This document shows positions 25,901 to 62,462 of a stretch of DNA of 64,000 bases, in pieces (the first letter of the stretch is position 1; every line of letters starts with the position of its first letter). The stretch comes from Saturnia japonica. Lineage: Eukaryota; Arthropoda; Insecta; Lepidoptera; Saturniidae. A model generated the notes under the pieces. The model worked only from the letters and a program-made list of their open reading frames with translations. It was not told the DNA's origin and did no database searches. The DNA is taken from assembly GCA_033032175.1 (NCBI GenBank), contig CM065324.1, positions 310,001 through 374,000 on the forward strand. The letters are read 5' to 3'. The translations under genes were made by a program, and so were the position numbers.

Positions 25901-28900
25901 CTCATCCCTCTCTCTCTATGGTTGTTACGTGTGATGGATGTGTAATTGTAATCGATGTATCTGAGAATAATAAAGTGTATAAATCTATTAAATAAGGAAT
26001 ATCATTTATAACAAGGTGGTTAAGCCTCTTAACAATACCATGTTCCATAACCAAGAATGGTCCTTTCAGCAAGACTCAGCACCGGGTCATAAAGTTCAAT
26101 CCACTCAAGCGTGGTTGGAAACAAACGTTTCGGACTTCATCAGAGCTGAAGACTGGCCGTCATCTAGTCCCGATCTTAATCCGCTGGATTATGATTTATG
26201 GTCAGTTTTAGATAGTATGGCATGCTCTAAACGCATAAGATAAGTCCCTAAAATAATCCATAAGATTGGCAGTGAAGAATTTCCTCATGAAGAAAGCGCG
26301 TGTTTCCAGTGATAACTGGCCTCAACGTTTAAAGGACTATTAAAGCCAATGGCGATCATTTTGAATGAGCTTCATATATTTTTATTGTTATTATATTAAT
26401 TTATAAACTAACACACATTACAGTAATAAATGATACAATAGAAAAAAATAAGTTTTTTCCTTTTAACAATATTTATGACAAGACTAAGTATGGTTTTTAT
26501 TTATTAAGGGAAATATAAAACGAATAAAAAACTATTTATAATATGCAACGTAATTCAAACTGTAAGGGCAATATCAAATCAATTGAAATTAATTATCTCA
26601 TAAGAACTAATTCATTTTTTTTCCTTAATCGTGTTTAGACAAAGAAAACGTAAGTAATTATTATTTTCAAATTACATTCGGCACTTAATGCAAACCCCAG
26701 CCAATGTTTTTATAATCCTAAATGTTTTGTGATTTGTTGTTTGCTGTCCATGTTCGCGATACGTTATTTCCCTACATCGTCTCAAAGTAATAAAATTATA
26801 TAATCATTTACAGGAATATTCAAAAGAACCTCGACATTTCAACCACACGCAGCTCCACAGAGGTTACTGCGTGAGCGAGCGCTGTGCTTCGCTTGCGGCA
26901 GAGCGTAACGCGTCTCTACGCTTCGAGCGCTGCGCTGCGCAATGGGGGAAAAAGCGAGCTTTCAAATTATCACTGATGAAACTGCAGTACTGCCGTACTC
27001 ATGCTCAAGAGTACGCTAGGACCCACAACCCTGAGCCTATGGAACAAGGACATCGAATATTCCTGCTTGTCGTTGCGATATTACTTGCTGTTAATTTTTT
27101 GGGTACAGCGTATGACGTCACACGAGGAGATGAAAGCAAAAGTAAGTAAGCGATGCACTCATCTTATTTAGAATGTATTGAACATAGGATATTAGAGTAC
27201 CTAGGCTTTAAAATTTAATAAGTAACCTATCGTTTTCCATTTTAAATTATAGCTTCTGGATATATCTCACTGTGGGACGTCGGTATAGGGGACGTAGGTT
27301 GCGATATCAAATGTTTGTTATATATGGGAGTTTGCGTATAAATAATTCGTTTGATTTTCGTATATAAAATTCGTTTAATAAATACGTTTACAATTTTTAA
27401 AGACATTGAATGAATGTAGGCGCGAATCTCGTCCAATCGGTAACTCGCCGCGCCGCCCCAATGCGTTGCTATATTCGTTGTGAACACATGTGATAACTGT
27501 TTTGACTTAATTACCAATATTGCAAGTTTATTTTACCAAAACCTATTGTACCCACATGAACACAGTAAAAACGTGAGAAAAAAATTAAGAAACTTAGAAA
27601 TTTGAATTCTTACGAGATAATTATTTAGAGGAGGTAGTTGAAACCGTCAACAGCTTATTGATATCGCTTCACATAATTTAATTTTAAAAAGTGTTTAAAT
27701 CGTTTGCTTCGTATTGTTTCTTAAGTAAATATCGATTCATTTAATGAATACGTGCAGTGCAAATATAGAAGTTTAATATACTGCAAGTAAAAGTCAAATT
27801 ATAAGGAAAAACCAGTGAAACGATTAGGTGCAGTAAAAATAGCAAAAACAACAACAAGGTGCAGATTAGCGTGTGACTAGCTCAGGTACGCTTAGATTCT
27901 GAAAACCTAAGGTGATTAGGGTGCAATTAACGAAAAAGTAAAAAAAAAAATAATTATATAGCCTAAACTAGATCTGAAATTACTTATTGCGCCATCTATG
28001 GACTAGTTGCTATAGCATCACCTTAACTGAGCTCCAACTTCAATTATTGTTAACTACCAGACTACTAGCGTCATCTTTTGACTAATAGCATTAACGTCGC
28101 TTCGTTATTATTGATTGCTTATTATTATAATATAATTATTTATCATTATATATTTGATCCCAAAAAATTACAGTTATGGAAGAATGAAATATAATGCTTA
28201 TTTCTATACAAAACGAAATAGCAGAACAAAAAGAAAACATGAAGCAAATGGAAGCAAACATAATAGAAAATATAAATAAACACACTGACAAGAAATTCAC
28301 TGAAATTGAAGAAAAATACAAACAATTAGAAAATTACAGTAAAGACCAAGAACGGCGCTTAAACTTGCTGGAACGACAGATTTTGCGAAAAAACGTCGTA
28401 CTTTTTGGTGTAGAAGAACTAAAACAAAGTTACAAACAAGTAGAAGACAAAATACTACATATATTTAACAATGATATGAGTGTATCCCGTGTAAGATTTG
28501 AAATTGAAATTATAAGAATTGGAAAAAGAAATGCGCATCCTAGACTAGTGTTTCTATAATGATTTCAATGCTAAGAAAAAAATAATACTACTTCGTAACA
28601 AAAATAATCTAGAAAATACAGGTTACTATTTGAAAGAAGAATTCTCTCCAAAAGTAGTAGAAAAAGGAAAGAACTTAATGACAAAATTGTAATTTTAGAA
28701 AATAGGAAAAAACAAATCAATGATAATAAAAAGCAAAAGAGAAATTTATCCATCTCACCAAATGATAACATATCAAATGGCCCTAATAAAGCTCATCATT
28801 CGAATAAGAAAAACAAAACAAATATCAACCCATTTTTCACACCAAGAAGAAGAACTTCAGGCCCATCACAGGTCCATCATAAAAATAACGAATCCATATC

Positions 28901-40180: not shown

Positions 40181-40370
40181 TGTATGCGGTGCAATGCCGC
40201 AGCACGCTGCATAGGCTGTTGACATGCATGAGGTAGCAGACCGGACCACACCCGGAGCCTTGCGGCACCCTATCACTGAGCGTGTCGCCCAGCTTAACGC
40301 GATAAGAGCGGTCAGTAAGGTAATCACGGAACCACTGGTTCAATGGTTGTTCCACTCCGCACTCCTCCAT
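40107..40370 (-). pseudogene. LINE RT, catalytic segment with one-base lesion
   Basis: MEECGVEQPLNQWFRDYLTD, VPQGSGCGPVCYLMHVNSL, then YADE at 40178-40167, where the catalytic YADD should be. The frame then goes wrong, and the correct continuation (CVLRAGTD) is in the next frame: one base was lost inside the second Asp codon region. Confidence 0.8.
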
Positions 40371-40435
40371 GGCATTTAAAAGTGTTGTTTTTTGTAATGT
40401 ATCGAATGCTTTCTTGTAATCGAAAAATATAGCTA

Positions 40436-44860: not shown

Positions 44861-45164
44861 AAATCCTGCATTGGATCCGCCTCCTGAGCCGGGCCGCTCA
44901 AGGGAGGGGTATGTCGGACTACTCTTACCGACTAAAACCCCACGGTGTCCTTCTCGCACCTAGTGGCCGGGGAGCGGGAACTGCTTATGCACGGCATCCG
45001 CTCTCCCGACAGGTTTGGCCCTACCCCGGGGCCCCGTCACAATCGGAGGCAATCGGAACCTCCAACGAGCCTCAGAGGGCGCACGAACACCAGTGCGCCT
45101 CCTCCATCTCGGGCCTGCAATACACGGTGACGGACACGCCCAAGTCCACCACCTGAAGACCCAT

Positions 45165-45910
45165 TTAAGGCGGCCGGAGATCATGCAATGACTTGCTCGC
45201 AAAACGAGGAGACGGAGTTCCATCCGCTCTCGCTCTCGACCATAGGCAGATTACCACGGCCGGGAGCGAGTGATCGGTGCCGATTGTCGCGACAATGTCG
45301 CGGCGCGGCGAGTCCCATGCGGGACAGACAGCTAAGGTATGCTGCGCAGTATCCACCGCGCAGCCACAGTGATGGTACCCGGGAGTGATCTCCTGTTCTA
45401 TGCGACACAGGAAACTCCCAAAACAGCCTTGTCCCGAGAGCACCTGTGTCAACCGGAAAGTGAGGGTGCCATGCTGTCTCCGGAGCCACCGAACCAGACC
45501 TGGCCTAATGGCTTCAACTGTCACCACGCCTGAGCTAGGGTGCTCAAGTCGTGAGTCCCACGCTTCCACCATGGGATTCTGGCGGAGCTCTAACCTGTAC
45601 GCCACAATCTTCCGCGGCGTTGGTCTTTCACCCCGCCTCAGGGCCCCCTCACGCCAATTAAACAACAGCGCGAGGACTCTCGCTTCGAGATCCCATGGTG
45701 AAGATCCGGCCAATAGGGAGGCTGCCTCAAACGAGACCGTACGGTACCCTCGGACAGCTCTGACAGCCATCGATCTCTGCGGTCTCCGCAGGAATGTGAG
45801 ATGCTGGGCCGGCAGGCTATCCGCCCACACTGGTGCTCCATATAGGGCCATTGACTGTACGGTCCCGAGGTAGAGCCCTGGGAGATCGCTTCCTCCGCCA
45901 GACTCTTCAC
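45165..45910 (-). pseudogene. R1 LINE post-RT region with zinc knuckle
   Basis: MALYGAPVWADSLPAQHL, VRAVRGYRTVSFEAASLLAG, FRLTQVLSGQGCFGSFL and the C-terminal knuckle HHCGCAVDTAQHTLAVCPAW, characteristic of the R1 clade; homologous to 57208-56303. Confidence 0.85.
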
Positions 45911-45940
45911 GTGCTTGATCGCATGTATTGTGAAGCGTCC

Positions 45941-46666
45941 TTAGCGGAAACCAAACTGGTTGTCAGCCAGGTCCGGCCCCACTTCCGTCAAATGGTGGAC
46001 GAGGCGGTCTGCAATTACTCTCTCCATGAGTTTGCCCACCTGGTCCAGTAGTACGATGGGGCGGAATGCGGATGGCGTGTCCGCCGGGCGCCCCTCCTTT
46101 TTGAGCAGGACCAGCCGGCCAGTTTTCCAGCACAGCGGAAAGCGGCCTTGCTCAAAACACGCTGTGAAGAGTCCCATCAATCGGGACTCGAGGACCTCAT
46201 GAGCCAGGACCCATGCACGACCTGGTATGCCATCGGGTCCTGGGGCGGTGTTCTTCGACTGAAGTCATCGCACCGCCCGGCTCAGTTCTTCCCGGGTCAC
46301 ATCGGGTACATTGTCACCCTCGTCCACGTAGGTCGCTGAAGGCGGAGCCATGGACGGAGGGATATGTTCTGTCCCCAATGGGAACAAAGCGTCCAACACT
46401 CGTTCTAGGAACCTAGGCTGGCTCTGGGTTGAAGGGCGCCCCCATGGATCCCGACTGAGAGTCTCCAGTAGTTCTTCGCGGGCCAATGCTTTCGCCCTGT
46501 CTATAGCGATTTTTAGCGCTTTGATATGGCCGCTCTGTACCTCCGTACAACTCCGCCTCCAGGGCGGTCGTGTCCTGCTGTCGGCTACGACGCCGTCTGT
46601 GCCTGGTATACCGGCGTTCTCGCCGAGACACAGACATCTCGCAGCTGCGCTATCTCGGCACTCCAC
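45941..46666 (-). pseudogene. R1 LINE linker and RT N-terminal part
   Basis: FPLCWKTGRLVLLKKEGRPA, SAFRPIVLLDQVGKLMERVI and NQFGFR at the end (45941), the finger motifs of the RT. The frame is broken between about 46180 and 46265. Confidence 0.8.
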
Positions 46667-46850
46667 CAGTACACCTGACGTCTGGTGGGTGTTCGCCTCA
46701 TACGAGGCATAGCCGCATCACAGGCACACGTCATCGTCCTGCGAAGTCATTCCGCCTCCTGCTCCACGCCGGTAAGCCTGTTAGAAGTCCCATCGAGACT
46801 CCAGGCCTGCCCAACAACTGTATCGCCGGATGCCTCGGCATCGAGGCGTT

Positions 46851-47527
46851 TTAGCGACCAACGCGGACCCCCCCCCCCCCTCTCGAGGTTTCTGGGACCG
46901 GATTGTAAGAGGTTTGGGCTGAGACGTCGAACCAGATATACCGATAGTCCGACAACGTCTCTACCCCCTCAAGGACTCTCCAGTACCGAACGCGGCATGC
47001 TAGGACAGGGCTAGCGAACGTTAGGTCCACTATGGACCCACCCTGCCGTCGCAGGCACGTGTGAACTGAACCTCTGTTGAGGATGGGTAGGCCGTTTGTT
47101 AGGGCCCACTCTTTTAGTTCCTCGCCCCTGGCATCCGTGGACGGGGAACCCCAAGCCGTAGATTTAGCATTGAAGTCCCCGAGCACTAGCACGGGACGAG
47201 GATGACTACGGGTGATGACGTTACCCAGTTCCACCAATAAAACCTGGAAGCCCCCACAATTATTATGTCGCCGAGATTTACCGCTACCCTTCCACGACTC
47301 TTTGTGACGACGACAAAGGGCGGGGAGTCAAAGGCTGCCCTATTAGTCAGGGCCACTGAGCCATTAAGGTCTCCCAGCCAGTTATCCCCGGGTGGGATGT
47401 AATAAGGCTCAGCGATCACGGCGACATGGATAGACCACTGCGCCGTGCTCTGGACCAGTAGATCCTGAGCTCTGGCGCAGTGGTTTAAGTTCGCCTGCAG
47501 TACACGGAGTGCCATTATTAATGACAC
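46851..47527 (-). pseudogene. R1 LINE endonuclease
   Basis: LRVLQANLNHCARAQDLLVQ, VAVIAEPYYIPPGDNWLGDL, VLVLGDFNAKSTAWGSPSTD and LSDYRYIWFDV. The R1-type endonuclease motifs (N, E, D.N, SDH position reads SDY) are recognisable, split over two frames near 47200; the altered SDH would impair cleavage. Confidence 0.82.
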
Positions 47528-56073: not shown

Positions 56074-56087
56074 ACAGGCTACCAACT
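56074..56087. repeat. Target-site copy 1 (ACAGGCTACCAACT)
   Basis: Left boundary of the R1 LINE insertion; exact match to 57954-57967 and 59053-59066. Confidence 0.9.
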
Positions 56088-56302
56088 CTCACTAAAAAAC
56101 TCCGCGGTGTTCCATCCGCCGCCATACTGGGGCGACGTGGGCACTACGTTAGCATTCAGCCACGCCGCCCCGGCGGCCGGCCCGGCTGACCGGGCCCCGG
56201 CCTAATTAGGAGACAGCTATGATACACGATAGCTGTCTCCTCCGCCTGCCGAACCAGTGCAATGAGGAGACGGGCCCCCCCGCCCCGTCTCCTCTGGTTC
56301 GG

Positions 56303-57208
56303 CTAGGATGGCGGGAGTTGACGGATAAACCGCCTCCTCCGGCCACCCCTTCGTCCTTGGTGGAGAGGGCCGCTCAGGGGATCCCCCTCGCGTACCCTCT
56401 CCGCAGCCTCCTTCTGCGAGATGACCTCCTCGCAGAAGGAGGCCATCTCCGTCCATGCGGTCTCGCTGCCGACCATGGCTTTAACCACGCTCGGCAGCGA
56501 GAGATCTCCTCCAACAGCTACGGCCAGAGTGCGGCGCTGCTCCACCCACGCAGCACACTCAGAGAGAGTGTGCTGCGCCGTATCCTCAGCAGCCCCGCAC
56601 TCGTGGCACGTAGTGTTTGGCTCCCTCCGTGCTATCTTGTGCGGGTACCATCCGAAACAACCATGTCCGGATAGTACCTGCACAAGTCTAAACGTCAGGG
56701 AGCCCCGCTCCCTGGCGCACCACTCCCGGAGGACCGGGTGGATGGCGTCTATGGTATAACGCCCATAACGCGCGTCCGCCAGGTCCTCCTCCCACTTCCT
56801 CAAAACAACCTCCCGGACCTCCGTCCTCACTCTTTCAACTTCCGTGGGAGCTGGAGGCTCTTCTAACTCCCTTCTCGCCACCGTGAATTTGTACACGGCG
56901 GCGAGCACCTTCGCCTCCAGCTCCCACGGTGGGGAGCCGGCAAGAACCATGGCCGCCCCCGCGGACACCGACCGGTACCCGCGGATGACTCTCAGCGCCA
57001 CGACACGCTGCGTAGCACGCAGTACGCGTCGGTTCGTGGCGCTGAGAGCATCGGCCCAGAACGGTGCCCCGTAGACGGCCATGCTCCTGACAACTCCCGC
57101 GAACAAACGGCGACAGCTCGCGCCCGGCCCCCCCGAGTTCTGGAGAAGCCGGCCGAGAGCCGCCGCCGCTCCCACTATCCGCGGTTCGAGTCCCTGAAAG
57201 TGGCCCAT
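56303..57208 (-). pseudogene. R1 LINE post-RT region with CCHC knuckle
   Basis: RSMAVYGAPFWADALSATNR, VALRVIRGYRSVSAGAAMVL, FRLVQVLSGHGCFGWYPHKI and the knuckle CHECGAAEDTAQHTLSECAAW-type motif (C..C....H....C). The frame is open to its stop at 56303. A frame change near 57208-57230 separates it from the RT. Confidence 0.88.
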
Positions 57209-57231
57209 GAAAAAGTATGGCCTCGGTCTTA

Positions 57232-57953
57232 TCAGCCGCCACCCTGAGGCCCAACGCCTTTATGCGCCCGACCACGAGGGCAGTGCCCTCTGTGGCCAGA
57301 CGCGCCACCTCTCCATATGTCCCCCCCCCCCCGGGCTACGACTAGGGTGTCATCCCCGTAGCACAGCACGCGAATCCCCGAAGGGAGCGCTACGCGGAGC
57401 ACCCAGTCATAGCCCATGTTCCACAGGAGCGGCCCCAACACTGACCCCTGTGGAACACCACACCCAGTGCGGCGCCGGACCACAGCCCCCCTTCCGTCCA
57501 CGAAGGCGACCTCCCTCCCCTGGAGGTAGTCCCCCAACAGCCGCCGCAAGTACGAGGGCACCCCGAAAAACGGGAGCGCCTCCCGTATAACACCATCCGG
57601 CAGATTGTTGAAGGCGTTGGCGATGTCGATCGACACCGCCAACAACCTACCTCCCCCCTCGGCCGCCTCCGCAGACCACTCCTTCAGGGTGGAGAGGGCG
57701 TCCAACGTTGAACGCCCTCTCCGGAAACCGAACTGCCGGTCCGAAAGTACCGGCCCAACTTCCTCCATGTGCCGGACGACACGAGACGCCAGAATGCGCT
57801 CCAGCATCTTCCTCGTGTCGTCCAGCAGCACTAGGGGCCGGTACGAGGACGGGCAGTCCGGGGGGCGACCCTCCTTCCCCAGAAGGCAGAGTCACCCCAT
57901 CTTCCAGAGCTTCGGGAACCGTCCAACCGACAAACATCGGTTGAACAGCTCCC
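57232..57953 (-). pseudogene. R1 LINE reverse transcriptase core
   Basis: LLDDTRKMLERILASRVVRH, DRQFGFRRGRSTLDALSTL, AVSIDIANAFNNLPDGVI, GCGVPQGSVLGPLLWNMGYD and the catalytic CYGDDTLVVA (residues 138-141 of the open frame from 57831). An earlier frame (57955-57835) holds the preceding RT finger. A C run at 57318-57329 probably caused the shift after the catalytic box. Confidence 0.88.
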
Positions 57954-57967
57954 ACAGGCTACCAACT
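57954..57967. repeat. Target-site copy 2
   Basis: Shared boundary between the R1 LINE and the ribozyme element. Confidence 0.9.
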
Positions 57968-58052
57968 TTTTTTTTTTTTTTTTTTGTTGACGTGGAGTGG
58001 AAAACCCGTCATGGGTACACACTCGCAAAGGGGGTCGAGTGGTTATGTGAGA

Positions 58053-58300
58053 CTTATACTCACTAAAAAACTCCACGGTGCACCGTCCGCCGCCATACTG
58101 GGGCGACGCGGGCACTGCGCTGGCATTCAGCCGCGCCGCCCCGGCGGCAAGGCCCGGAAGGGCCGCCCGCTGACGGAGACAGCCCGGTGACGAACTGTCT
58201 CCCCGTCCGCCAAACCAGTGCAATGGGAAGACAGGCCCCCCAACCCATCTCCCCTTGGTTCGGCCTGGCAGGAGAAGGAGGCGGATGAACCACCACCTGT
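58053..58300 (-). repeat. R1 LINE-like 3' region in the non-autonomous element
   Basis: CTCACTAAAAAACTCC.CGGTG, CCGCCGCCATACTGGGGCGA, GCATTCAGCC.CGCCGCCCC and CCAGTGCAATG follow in the same order as 56088-56330. Similarity stops where the hairpin array begins. Confidence 0.88.
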
Positions 58301-58322
58301 CCCCTACCCACCCGTCGTTGGG

Positions 58323-58864
58323 TTTTTTATAGAGGTTTTCTCCTCTGTCCCTGCCATAATGTTTGGCATATGGCTGGGGTAAGGGGCGAATGAACGCACC
58401 CCCACCCCGCTAGCCCGGCCATGATTTTTTACCGAGGTTTTCTCCTCTGCCGTCCTGTAACGGCAGGAGAAGGAGGTGAATGAACGCACCCCCTCCCCCA
58501 CCAGTCCGTCGTTGGTTTTTTATAGAGGTTTCCTCCTCTGCCGTCATTCAGCTCCCGTCCGTCCTTAACCAGTCCGTCTTTGATTTTTTAACGAGGTGCT
58601 CATCCTCAACCGTCCGTTTATTTTTTTAAGTGGTTTCCTTCCACTGTCCGTCCTTGATTTTTTATACTGGTGGTTTTCTCCACCTCCGTCCGGTAATTTT
58701 TTAAGGTGGTTGTCTTCCACCGTCCGTCCGTGATTTTTTAAAGGGTGGTTTACTCCACCACAGTCCGTCCAAGATTTTTTAAGGTGGTTTACTCCACCAC
58801 CGTCAGCGATTTTTTAAAGAGGTTGTATCCTCTCAATTTTTTAAGGAGGTTTTCTTCCTCCTCC
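58323..58864 (-). repeat. Array of eleven covarying hairpins
   Basis: Each unit has a T-rich word (GATTTTTTA), then a stem of 4-5 bp with a 6-7 base loop, then often GTCCGTCC. Stems (left arm start, + strand): AGAGG 58331, GAGG 58434, AGAGG 58524, GAGG 58593, AGTGG 58629, GGTGG 58669, GGTGG 58705, GGTGG 58744, GGTGG 58783, AGAGG 58818, GGAGG 58845. Each has its exact complement after the loop. The centre pair switches between A-T and T-A while pairing is kept. Confidence 0.85.
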
Positions 58865-58973
58865 GCCGTCAATGACGAGTCCGTCCGTAGTGGACGAGCC
58901 GAAGCAGGTCCACTCTTGCCCCATCCCCTGTCTCCTCTGATGAGCAGAGGGGTACAGGGGAGGAACGCCGTCG

Positions 58974-59052
58974 GTCTGGTATTAGCCGTCGGCCGTGAAG
59001 CGACCGCCGTTGCCCGGGGCACACCACGAGGAGGTTCCAGACATAGTGCCCC
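58974..59052 (-). ncRNA. HDV-like self-cleaving ribozyme
   Basis: On the minus strand, from the first base of the element: P1 GGGGCAC with GTGCCCC (7 bp, 59052-59046 and 59022-59016); P2 GTCTGG with CCAGAC (6 bp, 59042-59037 and 58979-58974); P3 ACC with GGT; loop L3 TCCTCGT; then GGGCAAC, whose GG can form P1.1 with L3; an imperfect P4 with the inner pairing GGTCG/CGGCC; and the joining CTAA with the catalytic C at 58985. All nested pairs of the double pseudoknot are present. Known LINE ribozymes of this class cut at the element's 5' end. Confidence 0.9.
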
Positions 59053-59066
59053 ACAGGCTACCAACT
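59053..59066. repeat. Target-site copy 3
   Basis: Right boundary; its last six bases overlap the SINE A box. Confidence 0.9.
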
Positions 59067-59084
59067 GGGCTATCATTGTTCAAC

Positions 59085-59270
59085 TATAAAACTTCTTTAT
59101 TTATGAACCGATTTGGATGATTATTTTTTTGTTGGAAAGAGGATACCTCAAGGGTGGTCCCATTTTAATTTAATTGGCATTGGACCTTCGGTTTCGAAGA
59201 TACACCAAAGAATACTTAAAAATCATTGAAATTGATTCCCTTTTTTGTTAAAAATTGTCTTGTTTATTAT
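59085..59270 (+). repeat. Dispersed repeat family D, copy 4
   Basis: AACTTCTTTATTTATGAACC, GGTGGTCCCATTTTAATTTA and TTTTGTTAAAAATTGTCTTG match the other three copies. Confidence 0.75.
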
Positions 59271-60140: not shown

Positions 60141-62462
60141 ATATTTAAGCAATGAAGTCTCAGTGGTAGATATAAGTTCCAATTGTAAACTGAGCTATTA
60201 ATGATGGATGCAAGGTGGTAAGGCAGTTTCTAATGTTCACTTGGCTCTTAAAGATATAATTATTGCGGAAAACGCTCAGTCTATATTAGTGTATTTTTTT
60301 TATAACATCAAGGGCCAAAACTGGACAGAAAACTGTTAATCGTTAATAGTTAACACAATTGCTAAAATTGAACTTTTAGTTTACTTAAAGAACCATTAAC
60401 GGTTTAACATATCTTACATTAACTTATTTTCATCAAGGGTGTTATATTATTTATCTGGAAGATAATCTTATTTAATATCTACTTTATATTATTCATCATA
60501 AGTTCATTTGATTTACCTTATTATTGTTTTGGTGTACCATTCGTCATAAGTTCATTTGATTTACCTTATTATTGTTTTGGTGTACCTATTCTTTTATTTC
60601 CAGAATACCAATTAATGATAGGTTTATGTATTGATGCGTTTAGATAATTTATAACTTGATAATTTTGGTTTAATAACAGCTTTGTTAATATTTTAGGTTC
60701 GTATTGTTTACATTGCAATATTATGACAATCTCTGTCATTGATAATTCTTTGATAGTAATAGAGCATGCGCAGTTAGGAGTTTCTCAGGTATAGACAAAT
60801 ATTCTATCCAGGTTCTAGTTTAGCAAAATAAATCTATGATTAGATTTATTTTGAATTTTTAAAATAAGAAAAGTCTAGTAAGATGAAATTTTGAATTCAA
60901 ACGAAAACAAAAGAGAAAATTAGAACAGAGAGTATGACAGATTCTTCAGGATGGATCTGATCAAGTTTTATGCATTGTACGGCAGACCTTTGAATAGTAG
61001 TAACGTTTATATCATAATTATCATGTGTTTTGATAATAACCAAATTATTGTACAACAGACCTGGGAGTCGAAAAGATAATTTATTTTATAACATATTTAT
61101 ATAGAAAAGTTATTTTAATTGTTATAATTTATAATTTTAATATTAATATGGGTGAAATACCCTTTATCAAAACGACAAATACCTACTGAACATTGAAAGA
61201 ACACTACCGGGAAAGTATCACCTGGATTTTGTATTTATAATACAAATAATAACTTTTCCTTTTACATATGAGGAAATCTCAATAGATAAGATATTTGGTG
61301 CTGCGTCGTCTGCTTGAGCAGTGTATCCTGATACGGCCTACACCGTGCTGACTTCTATTCTAGATCCTAGGCAAGGATCTCTACGCTGAGCTGTCGGAGC
61401 AAGAAGAACGTCTCGGTTACGGACATTAAAAATTGTGTACTAATAAATTGTAAAACCCATATTATTTGAAAATTGTAAGGTATGCTGGAAAATTATTCAT
61501 AACTATCCTAAATTACATTATTATCATAACAAGGGTTATAGTTAATATAATTTTATTTTAGGCTCGCGTAAAGGTGGTAGAAGTACTTGGTTTGGCGCAG
61601 CTCGGACAACCCTTGTGGATGAGACATGCGTTCTGTTGTTGCGTCGAAACTCTTTGTTTATTACTTGGGCGCCTTATATTTTAATATCTGCCAGTATATA
61701 GCTTGGACCGACGACATGCATTGACAGGTTCGACACTCTATACAGAAAAACCCGTAATAAAATCTTGAATTCATTATTTTTCATAAAATCATTCGTTTGG
61801 TAAAAATAAGCTTTACGATCATCAGTAAAAACTCGCAAATAAACGACTTAGTTCATTTATATTTTAAAAATTATGAAGCATATAATTAATTACTTTCAAA
61901 GTAAAAAATAGCGAATATATTATAAACTAAGTAGGTAGCTTAGGTCAAAATTAAGATTAATAATAAAATTATAAACGTAAATCCTTGTGTTAGTTGATGG
62001 AACGCGCTCGTGCAATACTGTAGCGTTAATTTCCTTACAAAAAAAAACCTTGAGTTCAGCATAATGTCTGGAAACTTATTAGGTGCCGTTTCATTATAAA
62101 ATTTTACCAATCGAAACGAAATACACGTATCGTAACTGTACACCGACTATTGTGTTATGTAGTTCATTTTTGAAATTTTGTAAATAAATATTTGCAAATT
62201 CTAATCGGTAATTTCTTAAATCTTACAAAACATATTTGACAATAATCTTTTTTATTCAATAAACAAAATATCAATCACAGTTAAAAATAAATTACAGGTA
62301 TGCAACAAAATTAATAATAAAAACCAGCTGAATTAAAAACATTGTTAGTTTCATAAATAATAAAGCGTGGAAGACTTACATATCTGATTCGCCTCAACAA
62401 ATATTCCTAGATAGCAATTAAGTAAGTAATTAAGAGATTTAAAGTGTGTTCGAGTGGCAGTG
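60141..62462. other. Intergenic region upstream of the likely paralogue
   Basis: AT-rich; no exon of the NRF family was found. A tandem duplication lies at 60491-60586. The proximal promoter of the next gene should lie at its right end, but no convincing TATA-initiator pair was found. Confidence 0.4.
60491..60586. repeat. 48-bp unit duplicated in tandem
   Basis: ATTCATCATAAGTTCATTTG...GGTGTACC (60491-60538) is followed by a second copy (60539-60586) with one difference (A to G). Confidence 0.93.

Follow-up and report, generated by a model that had tools for sequence, protein, structure and literature searches.

Self-cleaving ribozymes of the HDV-like type have been reported in R2, R4 (Dong), L1 and RTE elements (PMC3774820), as well as in R2/R1 SIDEs (PMC3414825). 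In R2, as described in the sections of PMC3774820 used here, such a ribozyme at the 5' end sets the 5' end of the element RNA, which is also what we propose for the present locus. The R2/R1 hybrid SIDEs of Drosophila resemble our element in being short and in combining a 5' HDV-like ribozyme with an R1-type 3' end, and their 14-bp target duplications compare with 13–17 bp here; according to the excerpts of PMC3414825, however, they are rDNA insertions whose ribozyme comes from R2, whereas the insertions described below are telomeric or dispersed and the ribozyme is common to the element's own R1-clade LINE. The L1Tc/NARTc Pr77 ribozyme of Trypanosoma cruzi (PMC4748587, in the part cited) differs in its clade (ingi/L1Tc) and its protist host. 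On the telomeric side, the insertion point of SART is between the T and the A of (TTAGG)n, its poly(A) being joined to AGG (PMC7265360), a junction also found here; the portion of that account available to us mentions no ribozyme and presents SART1Bm as telomere-specific, while the copies described here are also dispersed. A literature search on HDV-like or self-cleaving ribozymes with retrotransposons, insects or telomeric repeats gave, among the matches listed, no report of a ribozyme in TRAS or SART elements, two key papers lying outside the scope of that search. HDV-like ribozymes are already known from other LINEs, and what would be new here is their presence in telomere-type R1-clade LINEs, in both autonomous and non-autonomous partners.

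The locus lies in a window of 64,000 nt from Saturnia japonica (C21:310001-374000 of the 580-Mb genome), and further copies were sought in the same genome. Our main reading, which we hold with a probability of roughly 0.88, is that an HDV-like self-cleaving ribozyme forms the first ~79 nt of R1-clade LINEs of telomere type (SART-like) and of the short elements that accompany them, where it would free the element RNA from read-through transcripts. The features of the window that bear on this reading are collected in Table 1.

Table 1. Features of the ribozyme-bearing element and its surroundings (window positions; strand given as - or as. where it does not apply).
Feature	Positions	Strand	Remarks
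HDV-like ribozyme	58974..59052	-	Rfam RF02682 and RF00094 (both below gathering); covariation over 22 variants; 40/40 copies begin at G1
Non-autonomous (SIDE-like) retroelement, 1,085 nt	57968..59052	-	14-bp target duplication; full-length relatives at other genomic loci
Target-site duplication, 5' side of short element	59053..59066	.	ACAGGCTACCAACT, 3 exact copies in the window
Target-site duplication, 3' side of short element and 5' side of truncated LINE	57954..57967	.	ACAGGCTACCAACT copy
Third ACAGGCTACCAACT copy, 3' side of truncated LINE	56074..56087	.	exact 14-mer
Truncated copy of autonomous R1-clade LINE (broken RT, C-terminus, 3' UTR)	56088..57953	-	RVT_1; 88-94% protein identity to genome copies scored
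3' region common with LINE 3' UTR	58059..58298	-	75% identity to the adjacent truncated LINE, 253 aligned columns; 79-83% to autonomous 3' ends including terminal tail
5' part of tRNA-like (SINE-type) host sequence with box A	59053..59090	-	box B part beyond 56074
Array of 11 small hairpins (NGWGG, A-rich loop, CCWCN), A-run after each	58310..58870	-	54/55 stem pairs standard

A first-pass annotation of the sequence had proposed an HDV-like ribozyme on the minus strand, and all the pieces it named (P1, P2, P3, L3, GGGCAAC and CTAA) are present in the right order. Read from 59052 to 58974, the strand gives GGGGCAC-TAT-GTCTGG-A-ACC-TCCTCGT-GGT-GTGCCCC-GGGCAAC-...-CTAA-TA-CCAGAC. P1 is formed by GGGGCAC and GTGCCCC (59052-59046 / 59022-59016), P2 by GTCTGG and CCAGAC (59042-59037 / 58979-58974) and P3 by ACC and GGT, with L3 as TCCTCGT; the catalytic-type C, at 58985, lies within CTAA. 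The nested double-pseudoknot order P1-P2-P3-P1'-P4-P2' is preserved, and the 7-bp P1 opens with the G at 59052 (G1), immediately 3' of the predicted cut. An excerpt of PMC5035012 gives CCTCCTCGTGG, the L3/P3 core here, as the most conserved sequence in R2Dm, and the core CCUCCUCGUGG is identical to that quoted there for R2. HDV-like ribozymes have a highly conserved L3 G that pairs with an L3 U (PMC3774820, in the section cited), and counterparts of both bases are found in the window ribozyme. Silkmoth R2 ribozymes, as portrayed in the same paper, depart from this architecture: R2 sits in 28S genes and these ribozymes cut 28 nt upstream, in 28S, with a very long J1/2 and no P4, whereas here the predicted cut is the element edge, J1/2 has 2-3 nt and P4 is present.

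The Rfam covariance models recognise this fold with significant but sub-threshold scores. On a 401-nt segment, RF02682 (HDV-F-prausnitzii) gave 38.5 bits against a gathering score of 44 (E 8.7e-6) and RF00094 (HDV_ribozyme) 37.3 bits against 50 (E 5.8e-4). This was the covariance-model check that the first-pass annotation had called for. Over the full 64 kb the ribozyme had E 0.0014 and was the sole ribozyme in 4 matches at E <= 0.05; it is absent from the Rfam output at the default gathering threshold. The P4 stem, already noted as imperfect, owes this in part to a private C->T change at 59003 (a U.G wobble), a position where 39 of 40 copies have C; with C there, P4 has 7 standard pairs and one G.A.

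Copies of the short element were collected with a query of 167 nt from its 5' end, in which position 15 corresponds to G1; scoring covered the best 40 among 1314 candidates. Every one of these, the window copy among them, has GGGGCACTAT at its start, and the predicted cut lies at the 5' edge of a non-autonomous retroelement, as the first-pass annotation had proposed. Apart from the window copy, alignments start between query positions 10 and 15, and no scored copy (39 others, of 1314 candidates) extends upstream of G1 beyond a few chance bases; copies running upstream of 59052, which would have spoken against the ribozyme, were looked for and the scored ones stop there. The base preceding G1 was T in 26 copies, A in 7, C in 4 and G in 3, the query itself favouring T. 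In the window copy alone, the exact junction is ambiguous by 3 nt, GGG being common to flank and element; the 40 copies (window included) settle it, since GGGGCAC is the start of every one while their flanks differ. In 38 of the 40 the 79-nt ribozyme has one and the same sequence, the two exceptions being the private change in the window and one change in P1' of another copy. Target duplications of 13-17 nt flank 26 of the 40, most often with A as first base (22), G as second (19) and G as third (20), while 14 have no clear duplication. These 5'-end samples consist of the copies with the best scores and so contain too few worn or truncated ones. An additional subfamily query (40 scored of 1741) gave 39 copies starting at its first base; this query begins at G1 and is hence silent on upstream extension.

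The first 22-23 nt of the motif (P1, J1/2, the P2 5' strand, P3 and the start of L3) have 1,118 mismatch-free genome matches, a count of matches to this start and not of whole ribozymes, against 0 for the reversed pattern. Pattern and protein searches of virus and prokaryote contig collections confirmed nothing, which is uninformative for an insect. With RF02682, 62 of 20514 genome candidates were scored, yielding 39 matches at E <= 1e-3, of which 25 lie above gathering; the same model had 0 matches in 14 control genomes. All 20 RF02682 matches examined, of the 39, begin at G1 (L104 and L105 sharing a flank). The loci scanned singly by Rfam (L009, L053, L054, L080, L081, L092) were all below gathering.

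To follow pairing across variants, 22 distinct ribozymes were aligned, chosen as distinct rows among the sequences at hand. In this set 97.2% of cells pair, compared with 91.6% after shuffling and at most 47.3% when slid; a smaller set of 5 distinct rows gave 96.7%. Two-sided changes occupy 38 cells, a number reached by 0 of 500 shuffles, in a test that related sequences without structure can also exceed. Both sides switch at P1 pairs 5 and 6, P2 pairs 4 and 6 and P4 pairs 5-7; P2 pair 4 is UA in 14 ribozymes and AU in 8, and P2 pair 6 is GC in 17, AU in 2 and other in 3. The covariation in P2 does not stem from Rfam-based picking, since P2 is unpaired in the Rfam matches. The catalytic C in J4/2 is invariant (22/22 aligned), L3 appears as TCCTCGT, TCCGCGT or TCTTCGT, and several different P4 stems occur among the genome ribozymes. 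Two of five whole-structure measures are not clearly above shuffles: 7 pairs show two-sided change, which 35 of 500 shuffles reach, and further pair types are fewer than in shuffles (11 observed, 14.2 in shuffles). The misfits include 8 unpaired P2 cells and P4 pair 3, unpaired in 4 rows. The first-pass annotation had called for a search of the same genome for further copies with conserved pairing, and the motif does recur there, with 25 hits above gathering and with conserved, covarying pairs.

These data bear on the possibility that the window fold is a chance or decayed resemblance without function. The sub-threshold scores of the window copy would fit such a view, as would a crude home-made descriptor: when the GC-rich region was shuffled 2000 times, 41 of the shuffles contained a match to it. 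In its loosest form the descriptor had 92 window matches against a shuffle mean of 72.6 (max 92), and in its strictest 2 against 0.2 (max 2); it is a weak control, too loose to decide, and was replaced by the covariance models and genome copies. The 1,118 matches to the 5' 22-23 nt, the exact junctions, the covariation and the gathering-level genome hits leave a chance resemblance scarcely credible.

A search with the LINE C-terminus, in which 131 of 5061 candidates were scored, led to autonomous relatives, several of the scored copies having open frames of 1,057-1,062 aa. At the 5' end of one of them (L080) stands a complete ribozyme (RF02682, 36.8 bits). Among the first three autonomous 5' regions examined, the other two were incomplete, L078 having lost ~9 nt and L079 having no ribozyme through 5' truncation. 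A further query was made from the L080 5' end, in which G1 is position 15 (40 of 1520 scored); the 39 copies other than L080 start between positions 5 and 15, and all 20 autonomous-type 5' ends examined start GGGGCAC at G1. Nine autonomous copies have both ends known; the duplication abuts G1 in 7 of them, while of the remaining two one has 1 extra nt and the other 8 extra T. In a second autonomous-type subfamily (L121), near the end of C7, GGTTA repeats immediately precede the ribozyme. In the L080-L100 subfamily copies, a G-run and then a long T-run directly follow P2' on its 3' side.

The endonuclease of these LINEs is APE-type and of the R1 clade: in one copy (L124) the domain has as best PDB sequence matches the TRAS1 EN (1wdu, E 1.3e-11) and the R1Bm EN (2ei9, E 4.8e-7), and its Pfam match is Exo_endo_phos_2. 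The closest solved structures to the reverse transcriptase are R2 and then LINE-1, and ORF1 had no Pfam match. Named protein relatives are mostly from Lepidoptera, with some from ants, and two database names say type-1 element R1. At their 3' ends, 28 of 30 LINE loci carry the terminal tail of the short element (78.9-82.9% identity over 294-346 columns). On this evidence and that of the insertion sites described below, the partner of the short element is an R1-clade, SART-type LINE with the same ribozyme. Another LINE fragment, more diverged but with a recognisable EN domain, lies in the window at 44900-47500 (-); it is weakly similar to the RT copy and had no ribozyme in Rfam. Reverse-transcriptase fragments of lepidopteran type are also filed under Acinetobacter baumannii and Pseudomonas aeruginosa (P0124, P0128, P0135, P0155, P0214, P0224, P0239) and are probably insect contamination of bacterial assemblies.

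Insertion sites link these elements to telomere repeats. In the LINE 3' flanks, GG follows the poly(A) in 26 of 28, the pairs L054/L055, L067/L068 and L072/L073 sharing a flank and so not being independent among the 28; four of these flanks (L053, L074, L076, L077) run into GGTTA repeats. Poly(A) that abuts the AGG of (TTAGG)n is the SART-type arrangement. On the 5' side, GGTTAGGTT directly joined to the ribozyme start occurs 289 times in the genome, against 0 for the reversed pattern. The first junctions listed include 45 on C1-C31; for 39 of them a contig end is no more than 0.4 Mb away (the length of C31 not being known for this count), and 31 of the 39 are oriented towards it. A separate sample of 39 5' flanks (L081-L120, one duplicate dropped) includes 9 with at least 2 GGTTA repeats within 80 nt, 4 ending in TTAGGTT at the junction and 10 with a poly(A) tract of at least 12, as expected for head-to-tail arrays. 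Copies are also dispersed outside telomeres, so the Drosophila hybrid SIDEs are not matched in insertion site, the sites here being dispersed and telomeric instead of rDNA. The same ribozyme, the common 3' end and the SART-type site poly(A)|AGG together point to a telomere-type LINE family with a short satellite.

Two further observations were made in telomeric flanks. After GGTTA repeats, L077:2762-2824 holds a shortened ribozyme-like stretch (45.6 bits, model R1) that seems to be without the P2 5' strand and is perhaps a deletion derivative. In the 3' flanks of L074 and L075, the telomere repeats give way to other DNA that has GGGGTCGAGC close to its beginning and may represent the 5' end of a distinct family of telomeric elements.

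Combining these observations with the behaviour of R2, the likely role of the ribozyme is release from read-through transcripts. We infer that cleavage takes place, that the transcript comes from read-through and that the short element borrows the LINE proteins, as follows. The elements would be transcribed within longer RNAs starting upstream, in telomere repeats, in a preceding head-to-tail element or in a host transcript. The ribozyme would fold co-transcriptionally and cut just 5' of G1, giving an RNA that starts exactly at the element. The LINE proteins would then recognise the poly(A) tail together with the common 3' UTR and make a nick at TT/AGG or a comparable site; reverse transcription would run as far as G1, in which case a full-length new copy would again begin with the ribozyme. 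Such a ribozyme at the head of telomere-type LINEs would extend the same solution to telomeres and would explain how elements inside repeat arrays gain a defined 5' end.

In a telomeric head-to-tail array, a ribozyme might also act on both sides of its cut, freeing its own element's 5' end and trimming the read-through RNA of the upstream element so that it finishes in A(n)(GGUUA)nGGUU. At the nick, such a terminus might base-pair with the CCTAA strand and assist in priming reverse transcription back into telomeres. If true, this would make the ribozyme a telomere-array processing device coupling both ends of the LINE life cycle; we consider the idea possible but rather unlikely.

In the main alternative, the conserved 5' block would be mainly an internal pol II promoter, with G1 as the transcription start and the HDV-like fold secondary or dual-function, as in Pr77/L1TcRz of Trypanosoma cruzi. 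According to the part of PMC4748587 cited here, the core promoters of TRAS1 and SART1 of Bombyx contain a DPE motif, so that read-through may not be needed, and Pr77 is both promoter and ribozyme; the window element has CGTG at +25 to +28, in L3/P3. This CGTG, however, belongs to the segment CCUCCUCGUGG, which is conserved in R2 too (PMC5035012, as excerpted), and a promoter alone leaves unexplained the paired changes in P1, P2 and P4 and the several different P4 stems. We judge a mainly promoter function improbable, while a dual role as promoter and ribozyme is quite possible.

The surroundings in the window suggest how the short element came to its present site. The element ends in poly(A) at 57985-57968 and shows no RT-like ORF, the only overlapping frames being mechanical ORFs of up to 153 aa. 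With the 5' ribozyme and 3' UTR of an autonomous LINE and without the LINE proteins, it has the composition of a SIDE. For a SINE one would look for an own pol III promoter derived from a small RNA gene; the 5' end here is the ribozyme, and ARAGORN found no tRNA in the window. Three copies of the 14-mer ACAGGCTACCAACT flank the two insertions, a number reached by 0 of 100 shuffles. Homology of the truncated LINE to an intact copy starts at ELFNRC, just past the target copy, and its lack of a ribozyme follows from 5' truncation. As we read this arrangement, the truncated LINE entered the SINE-like sequence first and was followed at that site by the short element, a history that would explain the triple ACAGGCTACCAACT. 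Site-specificity for this SINE-like 14-mer was considered and dropped, other copies having different target duplications.

The host sequence bears on the earlier suggestion that the SINE-like sequence is transcribed by pol III and that the ribozyme frees the element from this RNA. When the outer flanks are joined by script, a box A (TAGCCCAGTTGG) and a box B (AGTTCGAATCC) appear 44 nt apart, so the part of the suggestion that places this insertion in a tRNA-like box A/box B sequence stands. As a general account of release it has little support: the insertions now put the boxes ~3 kb apart, ARAGORN found no tRNA in the window or in the joined flanks, the other copies examined lie in differing flanks, and many ribozymes directly follow telomere repeats. 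We regard release from a pol III transcript as very improbable, and release from read-through transcripts of the kinds outlined above as the better description.

Between its ribozyme and the 3' region common with the LINE, the short element contains an array of small hairpins (Table 1). The search pattern fixes 3 of the 5 pairs in each stem, and the pairing test rests on the outer and middle pairs, which vary together between units; 0 of 5000 arm permutations reach 54/55 pairs. Stems were counted by script, and a MAFFT alignment of the units was left out because at least one unit was misaligned. The region 58310-58890 folds at z -6.27, with 0 of 100 shuffles as low. Our guess is that it serves as a protein-binding RNA array.

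Rfam also reported miRNA-family matches at three places in the window, 26126-26188 (-), 57403-57471 (+) and 40297-40372 (-). The families, named here without regard to that order, are mir-3389, mir-2834 and mir-2830; they are Bombyx families and, like the protein relatives, point to Lepidoptera. The mir-3389 match falls in the LINE RT and recurs in another LINE copy (L054), and the mir-2834 match falls in sequence resembling, by eye, a Tc1/mariner transposase; at least the mir-3389 match looks transposon-derived. Finally, a 48-bp direct repeat, 98% identical, occurs in tandem at 60491-60586.
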